Of a DNA stretch of 64,000 nucleotides, positions 6,241-11,172 are shown piece by piece (position 1 is the first letter of the stretch; each line of letters begins with the position of its first letter). The DNA lies in contig NC_015948.1 of the NCBI RefSeq assembly GCF_000223905.1, positions 1,116,001 to 1,180,000 of the forward strand, given 5' to 3'. The position numbers and the translations under genes are program-made. The notes under the pieces were generated by a model. It was not told the origin of the DNA and did no database searches. It worked only from the letters and a program-made list of their open reading frames with translations. The stretch comes from Haloarcula hispanica ATCC 33960 (lineage in GTDB: Archaea > Halobacteriota > Halobacteria > Halobacteriales > Haloarculaceae).

Positions 6241-7410
6241 ATGACAGAGAACGTGGTCGTACTCGGTGCGGGGTACGCTGGCGCGGGGGCAATAAAGAGT
6301 TTAGAGGACGAGCTAGACGGTGTGACGGACGTCGATGTAACCTGGATTTCTGAGACGGACTATCACCTGGTCTTACACGAGTCCCACCGCTGCATTCGGG
6401 ACCCGAGCGTTCAGGAGAACATCGCTATTCCCGTCCACGAGATCAAACAGCCCTCGACCTCGTTCGTCCAGGACGAGGTCGTCGGCATCGACACCGACGC
6501 TCAGGAAGTGGCCCTCGCCGATTCCGACACCATCGAGTACGACTACCTGCTCGTGGGGCTGGGCTCGCAGACCGCATTCTTCGGCATCGACGGCCTCGAA
6601 GAGCACGCGCTGACGCTCAAGAGCCTCGACGACGCGCTCGACATCCACGACAACATCCAGCAGGCCGCTCGTGACGCCTCCACCAACGACCCCGCGCAGG
6701 TCGTCATCGGCGGCGCTGGCCTTTCGGGCATCCAGACCGCCGGCGAAGTCGCCGAGTTCCGCGACGAACACAACGCGCCCATCGACATCCACCTCGTCGA
6801 AGGGCTCGATCAGGTCCTGCCAAACAGCGACCCCGAGCTTCAGGGTGCCCTGCGCAAGCGCCTGGAGGCCGCCGACGTGAACATCAAGTGCGGGGAGTTC
6901 ATCGGCGAGGTCGACGAGGAGACGGTGTACATCGGCGACGAGGACGAACTGGACTACGACGTGCTGGTCTGGACTGGCGGCATCACCGGCCGCGATTGTA
7001 TGCAAGATGTCGACCTCGACAAAGACGAGCGCAACCACCGCGTCCACGCGGAAGGGAACTTCCAGACCGACGACGAGCACGTCTTCGCTATCGGTGACTC
7101 GGCGCTGATTGACCAGCCGGGCGACCAGCCCGCCCCGCCGACCGCCCAGGCCGCCTGGCAAGCCGCCGAAGTCGCCGGCGAGAACCTGGCTCGTGCGGTG
7201 CGGGGCCAGCCGCTGAAGACCTGGACCCACAAGGACAAGGGGACGGTTGTGTCGGTCGGCGAGAAAGCCGTCGCCCACGACGTTGTGAACATGCCCATCG
7301 AAACCTTCGGCGGGATGCCCGCGAAACTGCTGAAAAAGGCGATTGCCGCCCGCTGGATCAAGGACGTTACTGGCGTCGGTCGGGCCGTCAAGGCCTGGCC
7401 CGACATGTAG
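6241..7410 (+). CDS. ndh: Type II NADH dehydrogenase / FAD-dependent pyridine nucleotide-disulphide oxidoreductase
   Basis: Single-subunit membrane-associated NADH:quinone oxidoreductase that feeds electrons to the respiratory chain without pumping. The start chosen (MTENVVVLGAGYAGAGAIKSL) places the first GxGxxG directly at the N-terminus; the frame is open further upstream to 6118 but that extension is not protein-like. A second dinucleotide fold, VVIGGAGLSGIQTAGE, begins near residue 157, and the FAD motif VFAIGDSALI lies near residue 282. 389 residues suits the family. The C-terminal region (GGMPAKLLKKAIAARWIK) is a probable amphipathic membrane anchor. A sulphide:quinone reductase is a less likely alternative, as the paired cysteines of that family are absent. 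Confidence 0.87.
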   Translation: MTENVVVLGAGYAGAGAIKSLEDELDGVTDVDVTWISETDYHLVLHESHRCIRDPSVQENIAIPVHEIKQPSTSFVQDEVVGIDTDAQEVALADSDTIEYDYLLVGLGSQTAFFGIDGLEEHALTLKSLDDALDIHDNIQQAARDASTNDPAQVVIGGAGLSGIQTAGEVAEFRDEHNAPIDIHLVEGLDQVLPNSDPELQGALRKRLEAADVNIKCGEFIGEVDEETVYIGDEDELDYDVLVWTGGITGRDCMQDVDLDKDERNHRVHAEGNFQTDDEHVFAIGDSALIDQPGDQPAPPTAQAAWQAAEVAGENLARAVRGQPLKTWTHKDKGTVVSVGEKAVAHDVVNMPIETFGGMPAKLLKKAIAARWIKDVTGVGRAVKAWPDM

Positions 7411-7529
7411 TACCTTTTTACTTCGTCGGGTGTCCTCACGCGCTCTTCGAGCGCGCTGCGGGCACCACTCCTCGCAAAAATCTACGCTAAAAACGACCGT
7501 CTCGCTCCCGCTGGTCGCGAGACGTAAAA

Positions 7530-7652: not shown

Positions 7653-8477
7653 CTAGCGGTCGATAGAGAGGCCGGCGTGCCACCCGTCGGCGTCGGCCTC
7701 CTCGACGGCCGCGTCCATCTCGGCGAGATAGGAGACGGCGAGGCTGGCGCATTTCGCTGCCTTGCGCTCGCCTTCGGTTCGGAACTCGCCGGTGACGCGG
7801 TTGGCGTACACCGTACAGACAGCGCCGGCCCGCAGGCCGTACAGGTTCGCGAGCGTGAGAATCGTCGCGGCCTCCATCTCGAAGTTGAGGACGCCGGCCT
7901 CTTGAAGCGCCGCGATGCGTTCGTCGCTGCCGCTGGCCTCGAAGTCCTCGAACCCCGGGCGTGACTGCCCGGCGTAGAAACTATCCGTCGAGCAGGTGAC
8001 GCCGAGGTGGTAGTCGTAGCCGAGTTCCTCGGCGGCGGCGACGAGTGCCGAAACGATCCGGTGGTCGGCGCTGGCGGGGTAGTCCTCGCGGACGTACTCC
8101 TTGCTGGTCCCCTCCTGCCGTACTGCGCCAGTCGTGATGACGAGGTCGCCGATACTGGCTTCCTCCTGAATTGCGCCACAGGACCCGACCCGGATGAACG
8201 AGTCAGCGCCGACGCGGGCCAGTTCTTCGAGCGCGATTGCGGCCGACGGGCCGCCGATACCCGTCGAGGTCACAGAGATGGGCGTGCCGTCGTGAGTGCC
8301 CGTTGCCGTGCGGTACTCGCGGTGCTCGGCGACGATGTCGTGGTCGTCCCAGTAGTCGACGACCTTTTCGACGCGTTCCGGGTTCCCCGGCAGCAGGACG
8401 CTGTCGGCCACGTCGGCCTCGCTCACTTCCAGATGGTACTGTACGTCGTCGTTCGGGTCTTCACTATCGCTTGTCAT
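7653..8477 (-). CDS. udp: Uridine phosphorylase
   Basis: PNP/UDP phosphorylase family (NP-I), converting uridine and phosphate to uracil and ribose-1-phosphate. LLPGNPERVEKV near residue 30 is the phosphate-loop signature; SVTSTGIGGPSAAIALEEL and FIRVGSCGAIQ follow; FEMEAATILTLANL is the nucleoside-binding Glu-Met-Glu segment typical of uridine phosphorylases. 274 residues is normal. Its ATG overlaps the TGA of the cytidine deaminase gene (ATGA at 8474-8477), so the two are translationally coupled; cytidine is deaminated and then phosphorolysed by neighbouring products. Confidence 0.9.
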   Translation of the reverse strand: MTSDSEDPNDDVQYHLEVSEADVADSVLLPGNPERVEKVVDYWDDHDIVAEHREYRTATGTHDGTPISVTSTGIGGPSAAIALEELARVGADSFIRVGSCGAIQEEASIGDLVITTGAVRQEGTSKEYVREDYPASADHRIVSALVAAAEELGYDYHLGVTCSTDSFYAGQSRPGFEDFEASGSDERIAALQEAGVLNFEMEAATILTLANLYGLRAGAVCTVYANRVTGEFRTEGERKAAKCASLAVSYLAEMDAAVEEADADGWHAGLSIDR

Positions 8478-8860
8478 TTGTCGAGATGGTCGCTGGTGAT
8501 TGTTGTCGGCAGGAGCTCCCCGAGCTCGTACACCGTCGGCTCGTCGCCGTCGGTGATGATCTCGAACGACTCGTCACAGAACTCGCTGAACGTCTGTCGG
8601 CACATCCCACAGGGAGTGACGCCGTCGCGCTTGCCAGAGGTGACGGCGACGCGTTCGAACGACCGGTGCCCGTCGCTGACAGCCGCACCGATGGCCACTT
8701 CCTCGGCGTGCAAGCTGTTGCTGTAGTTGGCGTTTTCGATGTTACAACCGGTGTAGACGCTTCCATCACTCGTTTCGAGCGCCGCGCCGACCGTGTACTC
8801 CGAGTACGGCGCGTACGCCTCGTCAATGGCGTCTCTCGCTGCGTCGAGGAGGTCCTCCAT
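8474..8860 (-). CDS. cdd: Cytidine deaminase
   Basis: Zinc-dependent hydrolytic deaminase turning cytidine or deoxycytidine into uridine or deoxyuridine. The start at 8860 gives MEDLLDAARDAIDEAYAPYS, 128 residues, the length of homotetrameric enzymes. The zinc site is H51-A-E53 with C84 and C87 (TPCGMCRQ); CNIENANYSNSLHAEE is the substrate loop. It is odd that the ligand is His as in the long dimeric E. coli enzyme rather than Cys as in most short tetrameric ones. Located between a phosphomutase gene (64 bases upstream) and udp (4-base overlap), so part of a nucleoside salvage operon. Confidence 0.92.
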   Translation of the reverse strand: MEDLLDAARDAIDEAYAPYSEYTVGAALETSDGSVYTGCNIENANYSNSLHAEEVAIGAAVSDGHRSFERVAVTSGKRDGVTPCGMCRQTFSEFCDESFEIITDGDEPTVYELGELLPTTITSDHLDK

Positions 8861-8924
8861 GCACTGGGCGTCGAAGGGCCGTGTAGAAATTCTATCGGTC
8901 TCGGTAGCAGTCGGTGCTCGGGCG

Positions 8925-10292
8925 TCAGGCGTCAGCGGCACTGACGACCGCGACGGCGTCGCGGACCGCCTGTGTGGTGTCCGCGACCAGCGCGTCGATG
9001 TCGTCGCTCTCTGCGTACACCCGGACGTACGGCTCGGTGCCACTCGGCCGGACGAGCGTCCACGACCCGTCGTCAAAGGAGAGTCGGACGCCGTACTCGG
9101 TCGAGACGTCGGCCTCGGGGAACGCGTCCGGCAGGTCGGATTCCAGTTGCTCCATCGTTTCGGCTTTGGCGTCGTCGGGGCACTCCACACTTACTTTCTC
9201 ATAGGGTCGCTCAGAGATGACAGCCCGCCTGTCGCCCACACTCTCTCCGGCGAACAGGCGCGTCAGCACGGCTGCGCTAGCAACGCCGTCGATCCAGCCC
9301 CCGAAGGCGGTGTGGATATGCTTCCAGGGTTCTGCGGCAAAGACGACCTCAGTTTCGTCGGTCGCGTCCGCGCGAACGTCGGCGATTCCGACGTGGAGCG
9401 AGCCGAGGTGGATGCGTTCGACACGGCCGCCGGCGGCTTCGACCCGTTCATCGATGCGGCCAGAGGCGTTGGGCGTCGTTACGACCACAGGGTCCGAAAC
9501 GTCCGCAGTACGCGTGTAGTGTTCGGCGAGCATCGCGAGTATCGTATCCTCGTGGATGACATCGCCGTCGGCATCAACGACGACGATACGGTCAGCGTCG
9601 CCGTCGTGGCCGAACCCGAAGTCGGCGTCGGATTCGGCGACGAACTCGCGGAAATCGGCCAGTGTCTCCGGCGTCGGCTTGCTCTCACGGCCGGGGAAGG
9701 TTCCGTCGACGTTCGCCTCCGTCGCCAGCACGTCGGCACCCAGTTCTCGGAGGACCTGCGGCGTCGCCACGCTGGCCATGCCGTTCCCGCAGTCAACGGC
9801 GACTGTCAGCCCCGACGGGTCGCCACCGAGCGACTCGGCGTAGTCGGCGACAGCGCCTCGATACTCGTCGAGGTAGTCGACCGACTCCGTGTCGCCCCAG
9901 TCGCGCCAGGCTGTCGGTGTCGAGCCGTCCTCGATTCGCCCTTCGATGCGCGTCTCGTCGTCGTCGCCGTACTCGGTGCCGTCTGCAAACAGCTTGATGC
10001 CGTTGTCGGTCGGTGGGTTGTGGCTTGCGGTAATCATCACGCCGTGGCGGCCCTGTGAGGCATACGCCAGCGTCGGCGTCGGTACGCGGCCGATTCTGAC
10101 GACGCGCGCGCCGGCGCTTTGCAGTCCCGCGGCCATCGCATCAGCGAGTGCTGGCGAGGTTACGCGCCCGTCGTACCCCAGCACGAACGTCTCGCCGTCT
10201 CGGCCAGTCGCCTGTCCAACTCGCAGTGCAAGGTCCGGCGTCACCTTCGATACGACATCACCGCGGATTCCCGCGGTCCCGAACAGTTCCAT
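8925..10292 (-). CDS. Alpha-D-phosphohexomutase-family enzyme, candidate phosphopentomutase
   Basis: Phosphomutase that moves a phosphate between carbon atoms of a sugar through a phosphoserine. The start at 10292 gives MELFGTAGIRG, the family's N-terminal signature; 455 residues. The catalytic serine is S90 in TASHNP, metal ligands are DGDADR at 230-235, and the phosphate-binding RPSGTEPYVRVY lies near the C-terminus. The sugar-recognition loop, usually GE(x)SGH, is instead AAEPWKHIH (E321, H325), so a hexose substrate is doubtful. It heads an apparent operon with cdd and udp, whose product is ribose-1-phosphate; a pentose-phosphate substrate is my inference. Generic databases would call it phosphomannomutase or GlmM. 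Confidence 0.85.
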   Translation of the reverse strand: MELFGTAGIRGDVVSKVTPDLALRVGQATGRDGETFVLGYDGRVTSPALADAMAAGLQSAGARVVRIGRVPTPTLAYASQGRHGVMITASHNPPTDNGIKLFADGTEYGDDDETRIEGRIEDGSTPTAWRDWGDTESVDYLDEYRGAVADYAESLGGDPSGLTVAVDCGNGMASVATPQVLRELGADVLATEANVDGTFPGRESKPTPETLADFREFVAESDADFGFGHDGDADRIVVVDADGDVIHEDTILAMLAEHYTRTADVSDPVVVTTPNASGRIDERVEAAGGRVERIHLGSLHVGIADVRADATDETEVVFAAEPWKHIHTAFGGWIDGVASAAVLTRLFAGESVGDRRAVISERPYEKVSVECPDDAKAETMEQLESDLPDAFPEADVSTEYGVRLSFDDGSWTLVRPSGTEPYVRVYAESDDIDALVADTTQAVRDAVAVVSAADA

Positions 10293-10336: not shown

Positions 10337-11137
10337 TCACTTCTTCCCGATGAGGAATGTGTCGCCCTTGCCGTCACGGATGACCCGTTCGGCCACAGCA
10401 AAACCATGGCCCTCCAGTTGACTCCGGATGCCAGCGACGGAGTGGCCATTGGCTTCGAGTCGGTCTCCGTGGACTTCACAGTAGACGAGTCGGCACGAGG
10501 GCTGGTCGAGCGTCGTCGAGAGACCATTGAGAACAGCGCCCTCCGTTCCTTCGACATCGATTTTAATTGCGGTTGGTGTCGGCAGTTGGTTGTCGGCGAT
10601 GAACTCGTCGCCGTGTCGCTTGCTAATTGTGATTGTCTCGTGCGTGTTGGCTGTCGTCACCAGTGAATGCCCGGCTGAACCGACTTTTTCGAGCGTAATG
10701 GAGAGTTCTGCCTCACCGTTTTCATCGACCAGTGCGTGTTCGAATAGCGAGATATCGGTCCGGTTGTGTTGCATATTCTGTCGCAACCGCTCGGCGTTGT
10801 CGGGATGTGGTTCGAACGCGATGACCGGGTTGTCGGTCACCTGCGATGCCAGACAGGCGTACAGGCCGATATTGGCCCCGATATCGTAGAACACGTCGTC
10901 GGGCCGGAGTTCCCCCAGTAGATCGGCGAGTACCGGCCGTTCGTCTATTTTCCAGAGGTCAGTAAACTCGTTGTAGGTTGGTATCAGAAACTCTGTGCTG
11001 ACATCACCGACCGTGACCGCGTACGTGTCCCCGGCGAGGCGGTAAGAGAGAGACCGATAGCTGCCGTAAGCGTAATCGAGAGGTTTCCGGAATCCGAAAC
11101 GAGACGCCATCTGAACGACGATATCGGAAGACATCAT
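10337..11137 (-). CDS. FkbM-family SAM-dependent methyltransferase
   Basis: Class I methyltransferase, usually O-methylating sugars. The SAM motif I is VFYDIGANIGLYACLAS, followed by IAFEPHPDNAERLRQNM; TAIKIDVEGTEGAVLNGL is the FkbM signature. The start at 11137 (MMSSDIVVQMASRFG) is preferred over 11158 because a TATA-like CATACGTAAC lies about 27 bases before it. A possible target is a hexuronic acid of the S-layer glycan, since methylated glucuronic acid occurs in haloarchaeal N-glycans, but the glycosylation island lies 8 kb away. It is upstream of, and on the same strand as, the phosphomutase gene (44 bases). Confidence 0.82.
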   Translation of the reverse strand: MMSSDIVVQMASRFGFRKPLDYAYGSYRSLSYRLAGDTYAVTVGDVSTEFLIPTYNEFTDLWKIDERPVLADLLGELRPDDVFYDIGANIGLYACLASQVTDNPVIAFEPHPDNAERLRQNMQHNRTDISLFEHALVDENGEAELSITLEKVGSAGHSLVTTANTHETITISKRHGDEFIADNQLPTPTAIKIDVEGTEGAVLNGLSTTLDQPSCRLVYCEVHGDRLEANGHSVAGIRSQLEGHGFAVAERVIRDGKGDTFLIGKK

Positions 11138-11172
11138 TGGAGAACACAATTCAGGCATGTTACGTATGCCTG

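Follow-up and report, generated by a model that had tools for sequence, protein, structure and literature searches.

The window analysed here, a stretch of 64,000 nucleotides of the Haloarcula hispanica ATCC 33960 genome (NC_015948.1, positions 1,116,001 to 1,180,000), carries a gene, ppm, for a protein of the alpha-phosphohexomutase superfamily, followed on the same strand by genes for a cytidine deaminase (cdd) and a uridine phosphorylase (udp). Judging from sequence comparisons, we believe that ppm encodes a haloarchaeal phosphopentomutase of the TK1777 type, with a probability of about 0.9, and that it is most likely the general phosphopentomutase of the haloarchaea. A pentose substrate is proposed because the protein has a loop in common with the assayed enzyme TK1777, groups with it in a tree, and is encoded beside conserved genes of nucleoside uptake and breakdown. 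An earlier note on this DNA had suggested that the substrate was probably not a hexose phosphate and that the gene could be the haloarchaeal phosphopentomutase, mis-annotated as phosphomannomutase or GlmM. The first suggestion is supported by the TK1777 loop, the tree and the neighbouring genes, and the second by the match to the TK1777 structure, a well supported clade and a distribution over all sampled genomes of the class; the third fits the profile scores given below.

The catalytic S90, the metal-binding DGDADR and the altered EPWKHIH loop that the earlier note had read in the protein are all present. S90 lies in TASHNPP, and the serine is conserved in all 197 rows with an EPWK loop as well as in the 20 other archaeal phosphohexomutases compared; the superfamily signatures TxSHNP and DxDxDR are thus both matched. 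The hexose loop GE-x-N/S-G is absent and EPWKHIH (E321 to H327) is found instead, preceded by two alanines to give AAEPWKHIH. Motif IV reads VRPSGTEP from residue 414 onwards, but the proline that replaces alanine in RPSGTEP is not diagnostic, as it also occurs in 13/20 of the other phosphohexomutases. Pfam matched domains I, II and IV of the protein and not domain III, which carries the loop. The best NCBIfam model was archaeal GlmM (TIGR03990), with a score (375.5 bits) below its cut-off of 439, and there was no match to DeoB (TIGR01696) in NCBIfam.

In a sequence search of solved structures, the best of 49 matches was 9ix8 (TK1777, 302.1 bits), followed by the hexose enzyme 9du5 (186.5 bits), and no chain named PGM2 (the mammalian-type phosphopentomutase, cd05799) was among the structure matches listed. 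The alignment placed AAEPWKLVH of 9ix8 opposite AAEPWKHIH, and 176 of 411 aligned residues were identical to TK1777 (43%), versus 136/406 for the hexose enzyme TK1108 and 134/406 for PH0923. A tree of archaeal phosphohexomutases with the loop marked, which the earlier note had proposed as a check, set the EPWK proteins and TK1777 apart from the others: among its 55 rows, TK1777 and all 32 haloarchaeal EPWK proteins formed a clade with support 100/99, outside which fell TK1108, PH0923 and the 20 other phosphohexomutases. Of the 197 EPWK loci the tree includes 32, four of them placed there by choice and 28 picked at random, and the set of 20 excludes two loci (L002 and L211 in our numbering, where L stands for loci and G for genomes) that gave no open frame by the motif filter. 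Moreover, E248-D249 is the counterpart of E249-D250 in TK1777, and the glutamate is kept in 196/197 EPWK loci versus 6/20 of the others. In the accessible part of the TK1777 (PPMTk) report, the enzyme shows 210 umol/min/mg on deoxyribose-1-phosphate (dR1P) and no significant activity with G1P, M1P, F1P or glucosamine-1-phosphate, and its motif III is AAEP where others have GEEN (PMC11641776). In that text it is a proposal of the authors that the loop helps to set specificity, and the phosphopentomutase assignment of TK1777 is traced to 2004 (cited in PMC11641776). Besides the sequence features, the TK1777 type is defined by acting on pentose-1-phosphates and not on hexose phosphates, and by a tetrameric state.

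A relative of ppm was found in 116/116 sampled Halobacteria genomes, belonging to 46 genera, and every one had the EPWK loop. The earlier note had named as refuting evidence that the loop be common in proven phosphomannomutase or GlmM enzymes; EPWK occurred in 197/197 loci and in 0/20 of the other phosphohexomutases read. The 197 loci comprise those of the 116 sampled genomes, 80 named loci and one duplicate (the window gene entered twice, as L004 and L005); the named and sampled sets share some organisms, and the named loci, unlike the sampled genomes, were fetched in part by a pattern containing the loop. In a phylum sample of 196 genomes, identity outside the class Halobacteria was 40% or lower among the matches listed, and 11 of these relatives, when read, had loops other than EPWK. 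Canonical deoB exceeded the cut-off in none of the 116 Halobacteria genomes (there were three weak matches below threshold), and a DeoB encoded elsewhere in the H. hispanica genome was discarded as a candidate, there being no match. Within Haloarcula, the proteins of Har. vallismortis, japonica, argentinensis, amylolytica and mannanilytica were 96-97% identical to that of the window. The most divergent copies were L137 (G002, 53%) and L139 (G021, 50%), both without a nucleoside gene within the 1.5 kb around ppm. Some of the proteins (L095, L111 and L192-L200, Halorubrum among them) were longer, several open frames reaching about 490-530 amino acids, and a break in their match near residues 222-245 hints at an insertion. 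Relatives on plasmid records (the best 15 of 324, at 37-39% identity) were all named glmM; because they are only such distant relatives, these names are uninformative about how RefSeq names the clade of the window protein.

The neighbourhood of ppm is also conserved. In 100 of the 116 genomes a gene for cytidine deaminase, uridine phosphorylase or a Bmp/PnrA-type transporter lies beside ppm on the same strand, the nearest being bmp downstream in 54, cdd downstream in 44 and udp immediately upstream in two (L188 and L189, with the order udp-ppm). The named loci displayed a nucleoside-gene pattern in 72/80 cases, including Halomicrobium, Halosimplex, Natronomonas, Haladaptatus, Natrinema, Haloferax and Halorubrum. 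In some genera, Natrinema and Haladaptatus among them, a transporter takes up the roughly 5 kb that separate ppm from cdd, and the Haloferax copy matched the Pfam families Bmp, ABC_tran and two BPD_transp_2. According to the accessible text of PMC12628685, the T. kodakarensis nucleoside transporter NupDABC, whose binding protein is PnrA-like with swapped halves, is tied to nucleoside-dependent growth. L189 has cdd-udp-ppm in that order and, close to cdd, a divergent deoC, so that every step of deoxycytidine breakdown is represented in one cluster. As controls, we counted other neighbours downstream on the same strand: in the 116 genomes (with at most about 1.5 kb of flank in 55 of the loci) psmB, c12599, cbs, purM, ndh and hth scored 0, epim 4 and speB 1, and among the 80 named loci there were 24 cases each of epim and speB and one each of psmB, ndh and hth, the raised counts being due to the many close relatives with shared synteny. 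Since the loop is found in 116/116 genomes and the nucleoside neighbours are kept in 100/116, the loop and neighbourhood of ppm are not a matter of chance.

Several observations weigh against this interpretation or narrow it. The AlphaFold model of the protein has a mean predicted local distance difference test (pLDDT) of 93.0, and 9ix8 fills the first three rows of a Foldseek search with it; the structural Z values of VIA-align, 48.7 for the pentose enzyme 9ix8 and 48.4 for the hexose enzyme 9du5, are nevertheless a tie and, therefore, the fold alone, as modelled, does not discriminate between the two kinds of enzyme. The residues on which docking puts ribose-5-phosphate (R5P) in TK1777, E249-D250, are computed and not mutated in the accessible part of PMC11641776. 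In 16/116 genomes no nucleoside gene lies beside ppm (the flanks span about 8-10 kb in 11 of them and only about 1.5 kb in five), and a complete Bmp-type ATP-binding cassette (ABC) transporter is encoded elsewhere in the H. hispanica genome and not at ppm. Lastly, the ppm-cdd gap contains the sequence TAGAAATTCTA, 24-34 nt before cdd, which recurs unaltered in five further Haloarcula loci (L035-L038 and L040) and with a single change in L039, while the sequence around it drifts. It possibly represents a TATA-type element or an operator of cdd-udp, so that these two genes may have a promoter of their own, apart from ppm, and a single three-gene transcript is not to be assumed. Of the earlier note's operon, the order phosphomutase-cdd-udp with short gaps (64 nt) and an ATGA overlap (8477-8474) was borne out, whereas its single transcription unit is put in doubt by TAGAAATTCTA; the interval it gave, 8474-10292, covers ppm and cdd but leaves out udp.

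Phosphate transfer by a serine such as S90 through a bisphosphate is established for the superfamily. In ppm, S90 would act as a phosphoserine, with Mg2+ held by DGDADR, and phosphate would be exchanged between C1 and C5 of ribose or deoxyribose by way of the 1,5-bisphosphate. Hexose enzymes have loops such as GGEENGG or GE-x-SGH; with AAEPWKHIH in their stead, Trp and Lys would stand where Ser/Asn and Gly face the hexose, so that the pocket would accept a pentose phosphate. We infer the activity, substrate preference, direction, pathway and product fates from sequence and context. In the predicted route, cdd would convert (deoxy)cytidine into (deoxy)uridine, udp would release uracil and (deoxy)ribose-1-phosphate, and ppm would yield (deoxy)ribose-5-phosphate; deoxyribose-5-phosphate would then pass to DeoC and R5P most likely to phosphoribosyl pyrophosphate (PRPP) and salvage, because no transketolase match was found in the H. 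hispanica genome. The path from cytidine to R5P drawn by the earlier note fits the neighbours; R5P as its only end product is less obvious, and, as deoC is near-universal (over the cut-off in 115 of the 116 Halobacteria genomes) and no transketolase was found, dR1P may matter as much as ribose-1-phosphate (R1P). The only genome without deoC was G002.

Other explanations have to be weighed against a breakdown-directed phosphopentomutase. That ppm is an ordinary phosphoglucosamine, phosphomanno- or phosphoglucomutase, with coincidental nucleoside neighbours and a neutral variant of the loop, is highly improbable. All catalytic motifs of the superfamily are present and archaeal GlmM is the best NCBIfam model, but the score stays under the GlmM cut-off, and in the alignments the loop is that of the assayed pentose enzyme and differs from those of PH0923, TK1108, 2f7l and the enzyme of P. 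aeruginosa. In addition, the H. hispanica genome encodes three further members of the superfamily that can do the hexose work. On the strength of the loop, the tree, the GlmM cut-off and the conserved neighbours, we rejected this identity. It is also unlikely that ppm works mainly in reverse, from R5P to R1P for nucleoside synthesis or for the formation of ribose-1,5-bisphosphate (R15P). The reaction can run both ways and passes through a 1,5-bisphosphate that is R15P itself, as is established enzymology, but the neighbouring genes, for nucleoside import, deamination and phosphorolysis, point to breakdown, and every sampled genome has ppm, even those without R15P isomerase.

A narrower view, compatible with the phosphopentomutase assignment, is that dR1P is the chief substrate, ppm and DeoC burning the deoxyribose of DNA while R1P leaves mainly elsewhere, for instance by the pentose bisphosphate pathway where present. 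This we hold as a tentative idea that falls somewhat short of even odds. In its favour, deoC accompanies ppm almost everywhere and stands beside cdd-udp-ppm in one genome, the TK1777 activity quoted above is on dR1P (accessible part of PMC11641776), and a transketolase was not found in the H. hispanica genome. However, R15P isomerase was over the cut-off in only 74/116 genomes and below it in 42, including all eight Haloarcula, which calls for another exit for R1P in those genomes; PRPP synthesis can use R5P; and neither the cdd nor the udp family separates ribonucleosides from deoxyribonucleosides.

Two udp genes, which are 44-47% alike, are present in the H. hispanica genome. In a tree, the udp of the window grouped with 11 ppm-linked copies and the other with five from R15P-isomerase loci (a udp was found in five of the nine such loci fetched), both groups with support 100/100. 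This split into two clades agrees with the published one between Urdpase1 and Urdpase2, the window udp being equated with Urdpase2 by its linkage to ppm and not by comparison with the published sequences. In the accessible text of PMC9700705, Urdpase1 is a guanosine phosphorylase encoded beside R15P isomerase, the substrate of Urdpase2 is left open and its genes form no operons with those of the pentose bisphosphate pathway; the survey, of 2022, counts 19 halophiles without a clue for nucleoside degradation and names Haloarcula, Haloplanus and Halohasta in that connection. Elsewhere in the H. hispanica genome (L226), deoC and the R15P-type udp lie about 2.5 kb apart (positions 6764-7462 and 9984-10724 of L226), even though R15P isomerase is below the cut-off in Haloarcula; the deoC product has no Pfam match but matches TIGR00126. 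By eye, in coordinate lists, deoC directly adjoins R15P isomerase in many haloarchaeal genomes, such as G010, G070 and G092.

The features of the locus are collected in Table 1. The cdd product passed its NCBIfam model (141.1 bits, cut-off 113.65) and that of udp fell slightly short of the NCBIfam uridine phosphorylase model (263.9 bits, cut-off 280.3); the ATGA is common to the TGA stop of cdd and the ATG start of udp. On the same strand, a gene for an FkbM-family methyltransferase (10337-11158, minus) ends 44 nt upstream of ppm. Considered as a conserved partner of ppm, it was dismissed as a local neighbour, a relative being near ppm in only 2/116 genomes.

Table 1. Features of the ppm-cdd-udp locus, in window coordinates.
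Feature	Position	Strand	Remarks
ppm, predicted phosphopentomutase, alpha-phosphohexomutase superfamily	8925-10292	minus	ATG start, 455 aa
S90 codon, catalytic serine of TASHNPP	10023-10025	minus	position from sequence
DGDADR, metal-binding, residues 230-235	9588-9605	minus	sequence
EPWKHIH, altered sugar-binding loop, residues 321-327	9312-9332	minus	same motif III in 9ix8
ppm-cdd gap, 64 nt, with TAGAAATTCTA at 8884-8894	8861-8924	minus	putative function
cdd, cytidine deaminase, 128 aa	8474-8860	minus	TIGR01354 over cut-off
udp, uridine phosphorylase family, ppm-linked type, 274 aa	7653-8477	minus	profile match and clade

A phosphopentomutase of this kind is not new for the archaea, TK1777 being the precedent, and ppm is a class-wide haloarchaeal addition to a known kind of enzyme and not a new kind of system. 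In the open-access papers searched we found no printed phosphopentomutase assignment for haloarchaea, subscription papers and most database annotations lying outside the search; in the accessible part of a paper on purple bacteria, phosphopentomutase appears only in an enzyme table (PMC8307300). The assignment would correct the GlmM-like scoring of a gene found throughout the sampled Halobacteria, offers AAEPWKHxH as a one-line diagnostic of a class-wide phosphopentomutase, predicts a candidate partner for the second type of haloarchaeal uridine phosphorylase, and predicts a nucleoside-sugar step for Haloarcula, for which the accessible text of the 2022 survey recognises no route (PMC9700705). 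Beyond this, we see an even chance that ppm-cdd-udp and the PnrA-type importer are the core module of pyrimidine (deoxy)nucleoside degradation of the class and the missing nucleoside-sugar route of genera, such as Haloarcula, where the pentose bisphosphate pathway was not found. If so, the uridine phosphorylase of the ppm-linked clade would be the source of R1P and dR1P and, where an R1P kinase is present, R15P could prime the mutase and tie both pathways together.

Compared with known systems, the window protein is closest to TK1777 (9ix8), with which it has in common the fold, the TASHNPP serine, DGDADR, AAEPWK, the E-D pair after DGDADR and RPSGTEP; it differs in being haloarchaeal, in being encoded beside cdd and udp, and in a loop that goes on with HIH and not LVH. 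The archaeal GlmM and phosphoglucomutase/phosphomannomutase enzymes (TIGR03990; TK1108, 9du5; PH0923, 1wqa; ST0242, 2f7l) resemble it in fold, catalytic serine and metal motif, but have a loop of their own, GGEENGG or similar, and TK1108 and PH0923 have a glycine at the position of E248 and fall in a separate clade. DeoB (TIGR01696, COG1015) belongs to a different family, although the predicted reaction and pathway position are the same. Like the non-carboxylating pentose bisphosphate pathway of haloarchaea, the ppm route would carry nucleoside-derived R1P onwards; that pathway, in the accessible text of PMC9700705, has as its first enzymes a guanosine phosphorylase, Urdpase1, and an R1P kinase, encoded next to R15P isomerase, whereas the udp of the window groups outside the R15P-linked udp clade and none of the sampled Haloarcula has an R15P isomerase over the cut-off.

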